From the NCBI GenBank assembly GCA_018064405.1, contig JAGHVG010000016.1:1-38108 (forward strand): a DNA stretch of 38,108 nt, written 5' to 3'. This DNA is from Candidatus Enterousia scatequi (GTDB lineage: Bacteria; Pseudomonadota; Alphaproteobacteria; Rs-D84). The position numbers were made by a program, and so were the translations under genes. Shown here piece after piece: positions 1 through 38,108 of this stretch; position 1 is the stretch's first letter, and every line of letters begins with the position of its first letter. The notes under the pieces were generated by a model. That model worked only from the letters and a program-made list of their open reading frames with translations, did no database searches and was not told where the DNA came from.

Positions 1-90
1 TGCGGTTATCGTTGGCCAATCCGCCATTGCATTTATACCGTATATGCATGATAGTATTATTCCCAGTGTGAATATATTATGTTTGCGCAT
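1..90 (-). CDS. 5' end of an exported protein, paralogue of the 31389-32510 gene; runs off the left edge
   Basis: Reverse complement reads MRKHNIFTLGIILSCIYGINAMADWPTITA..., matching MRKHIFTLGIILTIIPAYG of the 31389 gene. The leader GGAAACTAAGGGGGACAGCACAATGCGCAAAC is shared. Confidence 0.75.
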   Translation of the reverse strand, partial: MRKHNIFTLGIILSCIYGINAMADWPTITA

Positions 91-220: not shown

Positions 221-958
221 ATGAAAAAGATATTATTAACAAGTGTTGCTTCGTTGGTGATTACCGGTATCGCACAAAATGCGATGGCTACATGGGGCAC
301 AGAAGGTCACGTTGATTTAAACGGTGCCAAGGAAGCCATTGAACGCGTGGATAATTCTTGGGCAGTAATAAATGGATTACAAGAAGCCGTTCGTACAGCA
401 GATGGTGACATAAACCAAAAACTAGCAAGTATTGCTGGCTATCTTGCCGAGGCACCTGCTGATGATGAAGGTGATGGGGATAAGCAATATGGCGAAAATT
501 CAAACGTTGGTGTTATTTCTGGCATTATAACTGATACCGCAAAAATCCAAGAAGGTTTTTATACTACATTAAGCATGTTGACAGGCGATAAAAACACAGA
601 AGGTTCTGTTGACTACAAAATAGAAACTTTAAGTGAAGCAATTTCTGCTAGCAGCACAAAATTGCAAAATGATGTTTTTGCCTTGGATTCCAAAGTTAAC
701 GAATTGGATGAAAACTTGTCTGCAGGTATCGCGAGTTCTGTCGCACTGTCATCTGTCGCAGTCGCCAATGTCCAAAAAGGCGAAATGTCCGTTGGTGGCG
801 GTTACGGCAACTACAATTCCAAATCTGCAATGGCATTTGGCGCAGCGTTGGGTATTACCAACAACTGGTCCGCGAATGCTGGTGTCGGGCTTGGATTCGG
901 CAAAGACACGAAAGCGTCTTTCCGCGTTGGAACAAATTACAAGTTTAAGTTGTTCTAA
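221..958 (+). CDS. Exported protein with YadA-like C-terminal anchor (trimeric autotransporter type)
   Basis: Signal peptide MKKILLTSVASLVITGIAQNAMA; C-terminus SSVALSSVAVANVQKGEMSVGGGYGNYNSKSAMAFGAALGITNNWSANAGVG...YKFKLF resembles the YadA anchor; terminal Phe. Confidence 0.75.
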   Translation: MKKILLTSVASLVITGIAQNAMATWGTEGHVDLNGAKEAIERVDNSWAVINGLQEAVRTADGDINQKLASIAGYLAEAPADDEGDGDKQYGENSNVGVISGIITDTAKIQEGFYTTLSMLTGDKNTEGSVDYKIETLSEAISASSTKLQNDVFALDSKVNELDENLSAGIASSVALSSVAVANVQKGEMSVGGGYGNYNSKSAMAFGAALGITNNWSANAGVGLGFGKDTKASFRVGTNYKFKLF

Positions 959-3183: not shown

Positions 3184-3345
3184 AAAAATAACGCGATTTA
3201 ATCCGGTTACATAACTTTCAAAATATATACAAAAAACAAACAGTTAAATACGAAAAACTGGTACAAAAAAACCAAGGTTTTTTTTCCACCACTTTTTGCA
3301 ATAAAAACCCAGGATTTCTCTGCTGTTGCCGGCTTCGTCATAACT
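3184..3345. repeat. Diverged copy of the intergenic repeat family (R1)
   Basis: Shares aataacRcgatttaatcYggtt, caaacagttaaatac and ccactttttgcA with 14690-14815. Confidence 0.6.
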
Positions 3346-12126: not shown

Positions 12127-14517
12127 TGCTATTACAAAATTTACCAATTTATTTGGGACAATGATTGTTTTTACTATTTTTTGTCCGTCTAGTTTTTTGG
12201 CAACAGTGTCTTTGGCGGCGGATGTTATGGCATTCTCTGATGCATCGGGTGCGATGTCAAATTGTCCGGCACGCTTGCCGTTAACAGATACCACAATGGT
12301 CACAGAGGCTTTCGCCAATTTAGATTCGTCAAATGTTGGCCATGCTTCAAATACCATTATGTTTTTATGGCCCAGTTTTTCCCACATTTCTTCGGTTAAA
12401 TGTGGTGCAAATGGGTTTAACACCTGAATTAAAGTTTCATATGCGGGGCGGGGCATATTTCCACTAAACTGATTCATAAATTCCATCATTGCAGAAATAG
12501 CCGTATTAAAATGCATATTGTCCAGGCGATCTGTGACATCAGCGACCAGTTGATTGACGATGCGTTCCTGTTCAGCGGTCATTGGTTCGTCTGTTAAATT
12601 ATCAGACATATTTTCAACACGTTTCAGAAAGCGTTGAACCCCAGCCAACGCGCCATCTGTCCATATAACATTGTTTTCCCATGGCCCCAGTGATAACACA
12701 GAAACGCGTGCCGCATCTGCACCAACAGCATCTACCAAATCAGCAACCATAAATCCGTTACCACGTGATTTTGACATTTTGTAGCCGTCATTACCCATTA
12801 ATAATCCCTGGGCAGTGCGTTTCTTGAATGGTTCGGGGGTGTTTACTAATCCCAGATCATATAATGCATGGTGCCAAAAACGTGAATAGATTAAATGGCG
12901 CGTATTGTGTTCGTGTCCCCCATTGTAGTGCGTCACAGGCATCCAGTTTTCCATTTGTTTGCGTGAACAAAATTCCTGGTCATTTTTTGGGTCCAGGTAT
13001 CGCAGATAATACCATGATGACCCAGCCCAACCTGGCATTGTATCTGTTTCGCGCTTGGCGGCTCCGCCACAGCATGGACACGTTGTGTTTACCCAATCGG
13101 TTGCGCGCGCCAATGGACTTTCGCCATTATCTGTGGGTCTGTAATCCATCATGTGTGGTTGCAGTATCGGCAATTCGTTCTCGGGCACTGGGATCCAGCC
13201 ACATTTATCACAGTAAATCATTGGAATTGGTTCGCCCCAATACATTTGGCGTGAAAATCCCCAATCTTTTAATTTGTATTTTGTTGTGCCGCGTGCAAAA
13301 CCATTTTTTTCGCCGTATTCAATCGCGGTTTTTATTGCGGTTTCTTTATCCATACCGTCCAAGAATTCTGAATTTATGTGCAGGCCATCACCTTCATAAA
13401 CTTTGTCTGGTTCACCACCGGATAATACTGGGATAATGTCCAAATTAAATTTCTTGGCAAATGCCCAATCGCGAGAATCGTGTGCAGGCACCGCCATAAT
13501 TGTTCCGTATGCATAATCTGCCAAAACGTAATCAGATGTAAAAACCGGAATTTGTTTGTTGGTAAAAGGGTTTGTTGCCATAATACCATCAAGTTTTATG
13601 CCTGTTTTATCTTTGGTTGTGTCGGTACGTTCTATCTCTGTCTTGGCGGCAGATGTTTTGATATATTGTTCAACTTCGTTTTTGTTCGCAATTTTACCAG
13701 CATCCAGCCATTTGCGTAATAGTTTATGTTCGGGGGCAATAACACAGAATGTTACACCGAAAATAGTATCAATTCTGGTGGTGTAAATTGTCATAGTGTC
13801 ATTATCAACGCGAAAATCAACGTCGGCACCATGTGAACGCCCAATCAGGTTGATTTCATCTTTTTTAATACGTTCGTCAAAGTCAACATCTTGCAATCCG
13901 TCTAGCAATTTATCCGCGTACTTAGATAGTGCCAGGTTCCATTGCATTTTTTCTTTTTTTTCAATTACGTTATGGCAACGTGGACATTTGTTGTCTTCCA
14001 ATTCTTCATTTGTAAATGTTGTTTTACATTCAGAACACCAATTCATCGGCAGGGCGGATTTGTATGCTAAACCCGCCTTGAAAAATTGAATAAACATCCA
14101 CTGTGTCCATTTAATGTATTCTGGATCCGATGTCGCGATACGCGTTTCAGGGCTAACCGACCAACCAACGCGGTCAATCATTTCAGAATAAGATTTTATT
14201 AAATCGCGTGCAACGTCAGCAGGGTGACGGCCAATTTTTGTTGCGTAATGTTCACCAGCAATCCCCATTGCATCAAACCCCATTGGAAATAATACATCAT
14301 ATCCACGATGACGGCGATATCGTGCCAAAACATCCATGCCCGAATAATTCATCATATGTCCGGCATGCATTCCGGCACCCGATAAAAACGGGAATTCAAC
14401 CAATGTGTAAAAACGTGGCTTTGAACCATCGTTTTTTGGAACAAAGGCACGTTCATCGCGCCAGCGTTTTTGCCATTTTGCTTCACGTTCTTGAATTTTC
14501 TTGATATCGTCGGTCAT
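12121..14517 (-). CDS. leuS: Leucyl-tRNA synthetase (divergent)
   Basis: HIGH-type HAGH; KMSKSRGN; Cys4 Zn motif; CP1 editing domain TTRIDTIFGVTFCVIAPEH and MAVPAHDSRDWAFA. Confidence 0.9.
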   Translation of the reverse strand: MTDDIKKIQEREAKWQKRWRDERAFVPKNDGSKPRFYTLVEFPFLSGAGMHAGHMMNYSGMDVLARYRRHRGYDVLFPMGFDAMGIAGEHYATKIGRHPADVARDLIKSYSEMIDRVGWSVSPETRIATSDPEYIKWTQWMFIQFFKAGLAYKSALPMNWCSECKTTFTNEELEDNKCPRCHNVIEKKEKMQWNLALSKYADKLLDGLQDVDFDERIKKDEINLIGRSHGADVDFRVDNDTMTIYTTRIDTIFGVTFCVIAPEHKLLRKWLDAGKIANKNEVEQYIKTSAAKTEIERTDTTKDKTGIKLDGIMATNPFTNKQIPVFTSDYVLADYAYGTIMAVPAHDSRDWAFAKKFNLDIIPVLSGGEPDKVYEGDGLHINSEFLDGMDKETAIKTAIEYGEKNGFARGTTKYKLKDWGFSRQMYWGEPIPMIYCDKCGWIPVPENELPILQPHMMDYRPTDNGESPLARATDWVNTTCPCCGGAAKRETDTMPGWAGSSWYYLRYLDPKNDQEFCSRKQMENWMPVTHYNGGHEHNTRHLIYSRFWHHALYDLGLVNTPEPFKKRTAQGLLMGNDGYKMSKSRGNGFMVADLVDAVGADAARVSVLSLGPWENNVIWTDGALAGVQRFLKRVENMSDNLTDEPMTAEQERIVNQLVADVTDRLDNMHFNTAISAMMEFMNQFSGNMPRPAYETLIQVLNPFAPHLTEEMWEKLGHKNIMVFEAWPTFDESKLAKASVTIVVSVNGKRAGQFDIAPDASENAITSAAKDTVAKKLDGQKIVKTIIVPNKLVNFVIAK

Positions 14518-14660: not shown

Positions 14661-14927
14661 ACCGCCTAAAATGGCGGGTTTTTGTTACAAATAACACGAT
14701 TTAATCTGGTTGCGAGAATTTAAAAATACATACAAAAATCAAACAGTTAAATACAAAAAAGTGGTGGAAAAAAACTAAGGTTTAAAGTCAACCACTTTTT
14801 GCATAATTTTGCTGTTGTTTAAAAATGCGCTGTAACCCACAGTGGGTGTGCGTTTGCGTGGTTTTTATAGGTATTGTCTTGTGGGTGCCTGATGGGGTGG
14901 TGCAAAAACCTTGGTTTATGTACCATT
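14661..14927. repeat. Intergenic repeat R2 upstream of surface-protein genes
   Basis: 14771-14927 aligns ungapped to 31201-31357 with 6 substitutions; left part resembles 3164-3300. Confidence 0.85.
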
Positions 14928-14955
14928 ATATTTGTGATACTTATTGGTTTTTTTG

Positions 14956-15017: not shown

Positions 15018-15215
15018 ATGAAACGGATATTTATAATTTTATGTTTAATAACATTCTGCAACATATCATACGCAGATATTGCATCAACGGCATACGTGGA
15101 TAACGCACTTTCCACCAAGCAAGATAAATTACAAATGCAACAACGTCCAACAACTGGCAAACATCAATTGGTATACGATGCCAATACGGCTGAATTTAAG
15201 TATCAGGAGCAATAA
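15018..15215 (+). CDS. Small exported protein, N-terminal-module paralogue of the next gene
   Basis: Signal peptide then DIASTAYVDNALSTKQDKLQMQQRPTTGKHQLVYDANTAEFKYQ, similar to 15218 product DIASTGYVDSIANTKQDVLPMAARPTNGTYNVVWDSNSGQFIFE. Confidence 0.7.
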   Translation: MKRIFIILCLITFCNISYADIASTAYVDNALSTKQDKLQMQQRPTTGKHQLVYDANTAEFKYQEQ

Positions 15216-15217
15216 TC

Positions 15218-16462
15218 ATGAACAAACAAATATCATTATTCATTGTAATATTAATGACGATACCTGCTTTGGCATACGGTGACATTGCATCCACCGGATA
15301 TGTTGATAGTATTGCCAACACAAAACAAGACGTGTTACCGATGGCAGCCCGTCCAACCAATGGTACCTATAACGTTGTTTGGGATAGTAACAGTGGTCAG
15401 TTTATATTTGAACCAGGCATGCAATGTGGTTCGGGTTGTTATGTCAATGGAGATAATGTTTGTATGTATTGTGATAAAGCATCATTTAATACAACCCAAA
15501 CAGAAAGTGTAACCAACGGCACACGTTCGCGCACTAACGCATGTACATCTGTGGATGTTGGTGCAACAACGTGTTCATGTTCCAATCGCAGTTATGGTAA
15601 TTGGACATATAATTGTAATAGCGGCTATAGTGGATCATCATCATGTTCATGCACGACCCCATGCACATCTGTTGCGAATCGTACCGACACAACCAGTGGG
15701 ACGGAAACATGCACAATAAGAAACGGCACAGGCAAACGTTCATACACGAATACATGCAGTAGTAATTACACCAGCAGTGGTTGTTCATCTGCTGGTGCAT
15801 CGTGCAGTGGGTGCAGTGCGTATAACACGCGTTCATCGACGGGTACATGTTATGTTCAAACATGTAACACTGGATATTATGGCACAGCGAATTCGTCAAC
15901 ATCATGTAGCGTATGCACGAATAAGCCATTGCATTCATTCTATACTGGATCATCGACAAGCAACAACTGTCCATGGACATGCGATAGTGGCTATACTCAA
16001 GAGGGCAGCGAATGCGGTGGTCTGAGTTGTCCATCTGGCCAATACGACATCGGATTTAGTCAGTGCATAGATCCCGCCACGAATGAGACAGGTTATGGAT
16101 ACATCAACGACAGTGTTCATACTTGGATAGGTCCAGATAGTTCCAATGAGTCCGTATACGGTCTAACGCAAGACAACACCTGGGGTGTGACATTATATAC
16201 AGGTGATAAAATAAAGGGAGAGACATTATGCAGCAGCATGGAAGGGATAGATGGCAAACCTGGTAATCCTGATGAAGCATTTGATGAGGATACTAGTCAG
16301 TATTGCTGGTGCAGGATGACGTTTCCGGCTGTGTCGCGTTGGGTGTTCCTCTACGACGACGGCTTTGCGGGCAATTGCGCGAACAATTGTGCGGGCTACT
16401 GCGGTTACAACATCCAGTTCAATTCCGCTTTCCGTTCGGGCATGTTCGGTTCGGTTGAGTAA
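15218..16462 (+). CDS. Exported Cys-rich modular surface protein with C-terminal CPSGQYD...CWCRMT...RSGMF domain
   Basis: Signal peptide; Cys-rich EGF/GCC-like centre; C-terminal domain homologous to both halves of the 31389 product. Confidence 0.8.
   Translation: MNKQISLFIVILMTIPALAYGDIASTGYVDSIANTKQDVLPMAARPTNGTYNVVWDSNSGQFIFEPGMQCGSGCYVNGDNVCMYCDKASFNTTQTESVTNGTRSRTNACTSVDVGATTCSCSNRSYGNWTYNCNSGYSGSSSCSCTTPCTSVANRTDTTSGTETCTIRNGTGKRSYTNTCSSNYTSSGCSSAGASCSGCSAYNTRSSTGTCYVQTCNTGYYGTANSSTSCSVCTNKPLHSFYTGSSTSNNCPWTCDSGYTQEGSECGGLSCPSGQYDIGFSQCIDPATNETGYGYINDSVHTWIGPDSSNESVYGLTQDNTWGVTLYTGDKIKGETLCSSMEGIDGKPGNPDEAFDEDTSQYCWCRMTFPAVSRWVFLYDDGFAGNCANNCAGYCGYNIQFNSAFRSGMFGSVE
16333..16459 (+). 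other. Candidate DGR-type variable region A
   Basis: Compared with 31904-32018: changes concentrated at codon positions 1 and 2 with third base kept, mostly C; at extreme 3' end of CDS. Confidence 0.5.
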
Positions 16463-31186: not shown

Positions 31187-31357
31187 AAACTGGTGCAAAA
31201 AAAACTAAGGTTTAAAGTCAACCACTTTTTGCATAATTTTGCTGTTGTTTAAAAATTCGCTGTAATCCACAGTGGATGTGCGTTTGCGTGGTTTTTATGG
31301 GTATTGCCTTTTGGGTGCCTGATGGGGTGGTGCAAAAACCTTGGTTTATGTACCATT
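31187..31357. repeat. Intergenic repeat R3 upstream of surface-protein gene
   Basis: 31201-31357 aligns ungapped to 14771-14927 with 6 substitutions. Confidence 0.88.
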
Positions 31358-31388
31358 TTTTTAACAGGAAACTAAGGGGGACAGCACA

Positions 31389-32510
31389 ATGCGCAAACAC
31401 ATATTCACACTAGGAATAATACTAACCATAATACCGGCATATGGATACAGATCAAGGGATGCAAATAATATCTGGACCGATCCAGAACGTACAACGCTTG
31501 CCAAAGAAATATGCGATAGTGATACCCAGGGTTGTCCATCTGCATCATGTTGGTTACCTGGTGGAATATATTATGATAATAAGGGAACATTTACCGAAAC
31601 ATGTACTGGTGGTTGTTCATCTGGTCGATACAACATTGGATTCAGCAGTTGTGTTGATGTAAAAACGAATGGCACAGGTAGGGGCTATATAACCAGAGGA
31701 AGAGAATACACTGCTGACACCGGTACCTATGGTCTAACGGAGGACCAGACATGGGGCGTGACATTTAGTGGTTATGGTCAAGTAAAAGGTATATCAGCAT
31801 GTACTAGCACATCTGGTACATTGGGTGTAGCCACTGATACAGAATTTAGTAACACAACACTAACTGGAGGCAATTGTTGGTGTAAAATGACAAGTCCGGC
31901 TACTTCGCGTTGGGTGTTCTACGCCGCCGACAGCGGTTCGGGCTCTTGTGGTCGCTGGTGTGCGTACCACTGCGCTGACGTAGTCCAGAACAATGTCATA
32001 GTCCGGTCGGGCATGTTCAGGTTATTTGGGTCAGAGTCGTCTTTTGACCAAACTTATGCGCGCAAATTAAGGGATTGTTCGAGATTTAGTTGTCCACCTG
32101 GTCAATACGACTTAGGATTCAGCAGTTGCATTGAAAATGTGTGGGGAAGTGGCTGGGGCGGTTGGAATTTTAATGGGGGCAAATCCTCCGCCACCACCTA
32201 TGGCTTAACTGCAGCTGGTCAATGGGGTACAACATTAGATGGTGGTAATAACATAACAGGCATAGCATCATGTAATGATACACCTGGTACACAAGGTGTA
32301 CTCGCCGATACAGAATTTAGTAACACAGTAAGTGGAGAATATTGTTGGTGTAAGATGACAAGTCCAGCTGCTTCGAGTTGGGCGTACCTCTACGACTACA
32401 CCACCAATAGTTCTTCCACGTGCGCTGAAGATTGTGCGGGCTACTGCGGTAGGTACAGCCAGAGCACCTCGAGTTTTCGGTCGGCCATGTTCTGGTCGGT
32501 GGGGAATTGA
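31389..32510 (+). CDS. Exported surface protein with two tandem copies of the CxSGxYD...CWCKMT...RSxMF domain
   Basis: Signal peptide; internal duplication (31607-32039 and 32084-32510) and homology to C-terminus of the 15218 product. Confidence 0.82.
   Translation: MRKHIFTLGIILTIIPAYGYRSRDANNIWTDPERTTLAKEICDSDTQGCPSASCWLPGGIYYDNKGTFTETCTGGCSSGRYNIGFSSCVDVKTNGTGRGYITRGREYTADTGTYGLTEDQTWGVTFSGYGQVKGISACTSTSGTLGVATDTEFSNTTLTGGNCWCKMTSPATSRWVFYAADSGSGSCGRWCAYHCADVVQNNVIVRSGMFRLFGSESSFDQTYARKLRDCSRFSCPPGQYDLGFSSCIENVWGSGWGGWNFNGGKSSATTYGLTAAGQWGTTLDGGNNITGIASCNDTPGTQGVLADTEFSNTVSGEYCWCKMTSPAASSWAYLYDYTTNSSSTCAEDCAGYCGRYSQSTSSFRSAMFWSVGN
31904..32018 (+). other. Candidate variable region B (internal domain copy)
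   Basis: Ungapped codon alignment to region A; variation biased to codon positions 1 and 2. Confidence 0.4.
32372..32505 (+). other. Candidate variable region C (3'-terminal domain copy)
   Basis: Same scaffold as region A with about 2 inserted codons; 3' end of CDS; followed by AATTGATG also seen after region A. Confidence 0.45.
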
Positions 32511-37743: not shown

Positions 37744-38108
37744 TGAGAACGTGTAAATATTTTGCATTGTGTGTTTGTGCTTTTTGTTATGGAAACGCAT
37801 TTGGACTTGATGTTTCTGAAATAGCAAATCCAAATGCATGGGTGCAGAAAACACGCCAAGAAACTTACACTGTTGGTGCAGATGGGAAATCATTGTTTCA
37901 TGGAAATACGAATACGGGTATGACTTTAAAATCTACAGGGGAAGTTGGGAGTCAAATAAAGGTGGTTGATAAAAATATACCGGCAAGGGTTAGAACAACA
38001 CCAAGTCCAACGCCAAGTCCAACACCGACACCAAGTCCAACGCCAAGTCCAACACCGACACCAAGTCCAACACCGACACCAAGTCCAACGCCAACACCGA
38101 CACCAAGT
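37743..38108 (+). CDS. Exported protein with TPSPTP-repeat stalk, truncated at window end
   Basis: Start overlaps previous stop (TGATG); MRTCKYFALCVCAFCYGNAFG signal peptide; PTPSPTPTPSP repeats. Confidence 0.7.
   Translation, partial: MRTCKYFALCVCAFCYGNAFGLDVSEIANPNAWVQKTRQETYTVGADGKSLFHGNTNTGMTLKSTGEVGSQIKVVDKNIPARVRTTPSPTPSPTPTPSPTPSPTPTPSPTPTPSPTPTPTPS
37998..38108 (+). repeat. Short tandem repeat (6-bp periodicity) coding Thr/Ser-Pro
   Basis: ccaagtccaacgccaagtccaacaccgacaccaagt... Confidence 0.92.

Follow-up and report, generated by a model that had tools for sequence, protein, structure and literature searches.

Several described systems bring a promoter in front of a gene by DNA recombination. 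Multi-locus promoter inversion under one serine invertase is a textbook trait of gut Bacteroidales, and the Mpi master DNA invertase of Bacteroides fragilis inverts 13 regions, including 7 polysaccharide promoters, and is thought to act in trans (PMC4747536). In Bacteroides the promoter lies whole within the invertible segment. The Hin, Gin and Cin invertases act on 26-bp dyad sites (hix, gix and cix) with half-sites AAACC/GGTTT and a 2-bp centre. In circularised insertion sequences of the IS30 and IS911 type, recombination brings a −35 and a −10 to a spacing of 17–18 nt at the junction. Finally, PhaseFinder-type surveys have described invertons, short intergenic invertible promoters near surface genes (PMC11892184, PMC11868660), although one survey reports 0 of 4 alphaproteobacterial samples positive for inversions (PMC5903667). 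Our literature searches (which also led to PMC2481393) listed no paper on invertible promoters in the group studied here and none on a promoter split by the crossover site, which is weak evidence of absence as most subscription journals were not covered.

Here we present comparative evidence that a 157-bp intergenic repeat of Candidatus Enterousia scatequi is a flippable DNA switch of this general kind, in which the predicted promoter is cut in two by the crossover site. The targets are single secreted or YadA-type proteins in alphaproteobacteria, unlike the Bacteroides fragilis network, and the −35 lies inside the segment and the −10 outside it. Compared with the Hin, Gin and Cin systems, the segment is only 107–134 bp, holds no gene and occurs at many loci per genome; the resemblance to these systems rests on the protein and its sites rather than on any recombinational enhancer or Fis site. 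Compared with the insertion-sequence junctions, it is a reversible inversion at fixed loci and not a transposition.

Architecture of the two repeats

The window analysed is a stretch of 38,108 nt (contig JAGHVG010000016.1), and the genome in which it lies (G000) has 756 kb in 38 contigs and is 79% complete. The original prediction, that 14771–14927 and 31201–31357 are near-identical non-coding repeats upstream of two surface-protein genes, is correct. The two copies align without gaps at 96% over 157 nt (E = 5e-70), or at 95% over 165 nt (14768–14932 with 31198–31362), and all six differences fall within an inner segment of 132 bp (126 of 132 identical). A search of the whole genome found 10 full-length copies at 91–100% identity and several partial ones, as well as one further copy, on contig C24, with the inner part inverted. 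Several full copies lie 10–60 bp from a contig end, and six of the G000 contigs end within 60 bp of a gene-side site, which points to a repeat that broke the assembly.

Comparing the copies side by side showed that the ends of the repeat are not arbitrary. Both are palindromic crossover sites with the core AACC-NN-GGTT, reading GGTGGAAAAAAACT-AA-GGTTTAAAGTCAACC on the left (AACC in other copies) and GGTGCAAAAACC-TT-GGTTTATGTACC on the right, and the central dinucleotides AA and TT on one strand show that the two sites are inverted relative to each other. In switch 1, the left site spans 26 bp (14765–14790) around the dinucleotide AA at 14777–14778, with the core AACTAAGGTT at 14773–14782, and is paired with the right, gene-side site at 14899–14924, with TT at 14911–14912 and the core AACCTTGGTT at 14907–14916. 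The invertible segment between them (14779–14910, 132 bp) carries the −35 hexamer TTGACT on the reverse strand at 14786–14791, whereas the −10 hexamer TACCAT stands on the forward strand at 14921–14926, on the fixed flank next to the gene. Switch 2 has the same layout, with the left site at 31195–31220 (AA at 31207–31208), the segment at 31209–31340 (132 bp), TTGACT on the reverse strand at 31216–31221, the right site at 31329–31354 (TT at 31341–31342), and TACCAT on the forward strand at 31351–31356. In the orientation found at both loci the two hexamers are about 130 bp apart and the −35 points away from the gene, so no promoter faces it (OFF). A terminator-like hairpin lies on the forward strand at 14662–14677, upstream of the left flank of switch 1. 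Inside the segment, at 14834–14848 and 31264–31278, is a near-palindrome whose arms change together between the two copies (ACCCACAGTGGGT against ATCCACAGTGGAT), perhaps a protein-binding site.

Both copies lie in the same orientation upstream of genes for secreted proteins. Switch 1 is followed on the forward strand by a small signal-peptide protein at 15018–15215 (MKRIFIILCLITFCNISYADIASTAYVD...) and by a 414-aa secreted Cys-rich protein at 15218–16462, probably in one operon with it, for which no Pfam or PHROG family was found. The target of switch 2 is a 373-aa secreted protein with two repeated Cys-rich domains (31389–32510, forward strand; repeats D3, D5 and D6). The repeated C-terminal Cys-rich domain of these surface proteins (repeat D3; 16376–16455, 31947–32026 and 32421–32500), which the original prediction took as a candidate variable domain, also has no Pfam or PHROG match.

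In contrast, on contig C24 the inner part is inverted between the same flank types and reads GGTTGACT-TTAAACC-TT-GGTTTATG-TACCAT in front of a gene start, placing TTGACT and TACCAT at exactly 17 nt across the crossover site (ON). The C24 segment matches the window segment at 104 of 128 positions when inverted, against 66 of 111 (39 gap columns) when not. The strongest single result comes from two related genomes, G113 and G030 (by position, the records CACYHO010000001.1, RUG11949, and CADBVV010000004.1, RUG14344), which are near-identical on both sides of the same locus (303/304 and 689/694) while the 109-bp segment agrees at 107 positions only when inverted. The same locus was thus found in both states, each in a different genome.

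Distribution, promoter halves and target genes

To see how widely the design occurs, we searched with a degenerate pattern for the −35-bearing end. In G000 the pattern found 13 ends, and the reversed control pattern none. Among 141 genomes of the genus it found 103 ends in 25, again with no control hit, with 25 ends in G116, 14 in G137, 13 in G000, 12 in G155, and seven each in G028 and G145; four weak single matches (G069, G129, G163 and G173) may be chance. Over the order it hit 26 of 201 genomes, all in the one genus and 0 of 45 outside, with no control hit. We examined 83 of the 103 ends; three (L114, L149 and L152) had no second core in reach and were left out, and a false second row for contig C20 was removed by filtering. 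A further locus, C3:94111 (OFF, −35 TTGAAA), was missed by the pattern and is not in the set. In the remaining 80 a partner site was found at 107–134 bp, and in all 80 the central dinucleotides are those of inverted partners, TT/AA, or TA/TA in G137, G028 and some others. One genome can use both kinds: the invertase locus of G116 (C6:7137, L130) is TA while its 23 two-site partners are TT/AA, and the C20 locus of G000 (13560–13690, L068) is TA among AA/TT loci. As partner sites of serine recombinases must share their dinucleotide, the two kinds should not recombine with each other, possibly forming an insulated sub-network.

We then scored the two promoter halves in a fixed register, after a first score that searched all registers had proved too permissive. 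The −35 end has a mean of 4.28 of 6 matches to TTGACA, against 2.73 for the other segment end given its best of three registers, and the gene flank has 4.33 of 6 matches to TATAAT at 16–18 nt, against 2.70 for the far flank (n = 80). The loci are paralogues, and ON and OFF were called by eye from the gene-bearing flank, so the comparison of gene flank with far flank is not fully independent and the P values calculated for these comparisons overstate the certainty. The −10 is TACCAT in G000 (only 4 of 6 to consensus), TACACT in most of G116 and G155, and TATAAT, TATATT or TATACT in G137 and G028. In G116 only about 38 nt separate the core from the start codon, leaving no room for a complete promoter downstream of the site. 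In G155 the far flank also offers a −10 (TATACC) at about 17 nt (L131–L142), so the rule is less clear there and the OFF orientation might drive outward transcription. A separate consensus scan found the composite promoter in the ON loci C24, where it is the only promoter-like site of that stretch, and G113, but not in the OFF locus of switch 1, where it named no promoter-like site, or in G030. At switch 2 it named only a weak match (31361–31390) whose −10 overlaps the start codon. Such single hits are not above the shuffle expectation, and the weight therefore lies in the comparison.

The link to secreted proteins is strongly supported. Of 69 gene-side flanks with at least 150 nt, 63 lead into an ORF with a crude signal-peptide pattern, compared to 9 of 80 far flanks. 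The proteins have shared N-termini and differing bodies, namely MRKH... Cys-rich proteins and MKRIF... DIASTAYVD proteins in G000, ...TSKSYVDSKLGEKQD... in G116, and ...LPSGYTELEYIES... in G137 and G028, and most have no Pfam match. The invertase-adjacent proteins of G137 and G000 are YadA-type.

Of the 80 switches, 11 are ON: 1 of 13 in G000, 2 of 24 in G116, 3 of 12 in G155, 2 of 12 in G137, 1 of 7 in G028, and 2 of 12 in twelve one-locus genomes. This fits a strong bias to OFF (against one half, P = 2e-11, with loci that are not independent and assemblies that show only the majority state). We considered strict mutual exclusion, but these counts do not prove it.

The Mpi-like serine recombinase

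Partial copies of the repeat led to contig C3, where a 199-aa serine recombinase gene stands beside a switch of the same type, divergent from a long gene whose protein ends like a YadA autotransporter; the YadA anchor itself was scored for window 221–958 and for the matching G137 gene. It is the only relative found in G000, whereas 111 of 141 genomes of the genus have one at E = 0.001 or better, about 25 of them at 67% identity or more. The closest NCBIfam model is the Mpi family (NF009949), matched over the full length with 255.8 and 257.6 bits (E = 2.7e-76 and 7.8e-77), below the equivalog cut-off of 272 bits, so the protein is a close relative but not a member by the curated rule. It has the Pfam Resolvase domain and C-terminal HTH of a small serine invertase of the Hin/Gin type, Gin is its best solved-structure match in the PDB (E = 2.5e-9), and the serine-recombinase residues Ser9 and Arg72/Arg75 are conserved in 10 of 10 aligned sequences. 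In a scan of contigs from 84,980 species, which sees only carriers of two short peptide patterns, hits of about 47% or more were alphaproteobacterial MAGs from rumen, ileum, caecum, omasum and horse faeces, and Parabacteroides/Tannerellaceae.

Next to the invertase gene the switch was found in most of 25 loci. Genomes with switch ends and genomes with a close invertase (67% identity or more) coincide, with 21 having both, 4 sites only, 4 the enzyme only and 112 neither; for ends away from the invertase gene the counts are 8, 4, 17 and 112 (P = 1e-4), the sorting having been done by hand. G145 has seven ends and no close invertase was found in it (assembly 78% complete), and four genomes with the invertase (G085, G143, G158 and G160) show no end by this pattern. 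The genus also holds a second, more diverged group of invertases (40–60% identity, up to 8 matches per genome in G126). We searched next to the Parabacteroides and more distant alphaproteobacterial invertases (13 loci, exact arms of 13 or more, within 1 kb upstream or downstream) and found no inverted repeats except two short stem-loops downstream, so we make no claim about their targets. In 17 of 24 invertase loci (L036–L059) a terminator-like hairpin with a T run lies within 110 nt before the start codon, against 0.48 expected from shuffles; leader attenuation could keep inversion rare.

Interpretation and other junctions

We conclude with high confidence that the repeat is an invertible promoter switch, one of at least 13 in this genome, and the best reading of the whole set is a genome-wide phase-variation network run by one invertase. 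In this view, a single Mpi-like invertase would cut both sites at the central dinucleotide and turn the segment round, joining TTGACT and TACCAT with the crossover site as the spacer, and as each switch would drive a secreted or surface protein, cells of one clone would differ in which proteins they show. The architecture, the existence of both orientations, and the links to the genes and to the invertase family are established by our comparisons, and orientation decides at the sequence level whether a promoter faces the gene. That this enzyme performs the inversion and acts on distant loci, that inversion is ongoing and at what rate, and that the promoter works and expression follows orientation are inferences from sequence. 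If correct, an equally large network as in Bacteroidales appears in small-genome, uncultured alphaproteobacteria of ruminant and horse guts, tied to one class of secreted and YadA-anchored proteins. The layout makes orientation readable as ON or OFF from DNA alone, so existing rumen metagenomes can be mined for switching, and it would give a function and a regulator to large paralogous protein families that have no Pfam match. It also warns that these loci break assemblies.

The original prediction offered a regulatory RNA or leader, a recombination site for cassette exchange, or a recent gene-conversion tract, and was thus right in part: the ends are crossover sites, but mainly for inversion of a promoter segment rather than for cassette exchange. 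Of the alternatives, the one that survives best, though unlikely, is that the switch is run by another recombinase, as suggested by G145, by the common invertases of 40–60% identity and by the incompleteness of G000; however, only one relative was found in G000, it sits beside a switch of the same site type, and there is co-occurrence across the genus. A non-autonomous, MITE-like element would account for many copies with inverted ends and no gene inside, but is very unlikely. Leaving target-site duplications aside, the copies are bound to one gene class, the similarity continues into the left flank (repeat D4) and the gene start, i.e. whole cassettes were duplicated, the ends are dyads with a covarying central dinucleotide as for serine recombinases, and G113 and G030 differ by inversion in place. 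Phage and plasmid records hold no similar DNA. Gene conversion is not excluded as a reason why copies within one genome stay 91–96% alike, much closer than between species, and can coexist with the switch, but it does not give paired sites, inverted copies or a matching invertase next to a copy, and as sole explanation it is refuted by the in-place inversion. A regulatory RNA, suggested by highly alike intergenic copies in the same orientation upstream of related genes, is not supported, as neither strand folds better than dinucleotide shuffles (z = −0.23, 0.01, 0.05 and 0.96), no Rfam family other than tRNA matches in the window, relatives conserve the ends and not the middle, and the segment occurs in either orientation.

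Three solo junctions hint that exchange between loci also happens. The site at 125–150 joins two gene-side flanks, with a gene on each side but no segment and no −35: the start of a secreted-protein gene of the MRKH type (1–90, reverse strand, running off the contig) and, divergent from it, a 245-aa protein with a YadA-like membrane anchor (221–958, forward strand; PF03895, E = 6.9e-8). C24:122–154 joins a left flank directly to a gene flank. The site at 3262–3287 is an orphan, probably a relic, with a left flank but no segment or surface gene, followed by a tRNA cluster; it is part of an 83% repeat of 14670–14803, and the right side of the orphan site at 3270 did not distinguish an old left flank from an old segment end (15–19 against 17 of 24 matches for most loci). 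Such joins would be expected if the invertase sometimes recombines sites of different loci with matching dinucleotides, an inference from three places. A more far-reaching reading, which remains tentative, is that a genus with roughly 1-Mb genomes runs a genome-wide surface-variation system in which the crossover site itself is the 17–18-bp spacer of a split promoter, so that a gene can only be expressed when its own segment is turned. Up to 24 paralogous surface genes in one genome would sit behind such switches with only one to three ON, and the same invertase, held down by the terminator in its own leader, would also fuse flanks of different loci and so reshuffle which gene sits behind which switch. 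At the other end of the contig, 37966–38103 holds a short tandem repeat of the CCAAGTCCAACACCGACA type.
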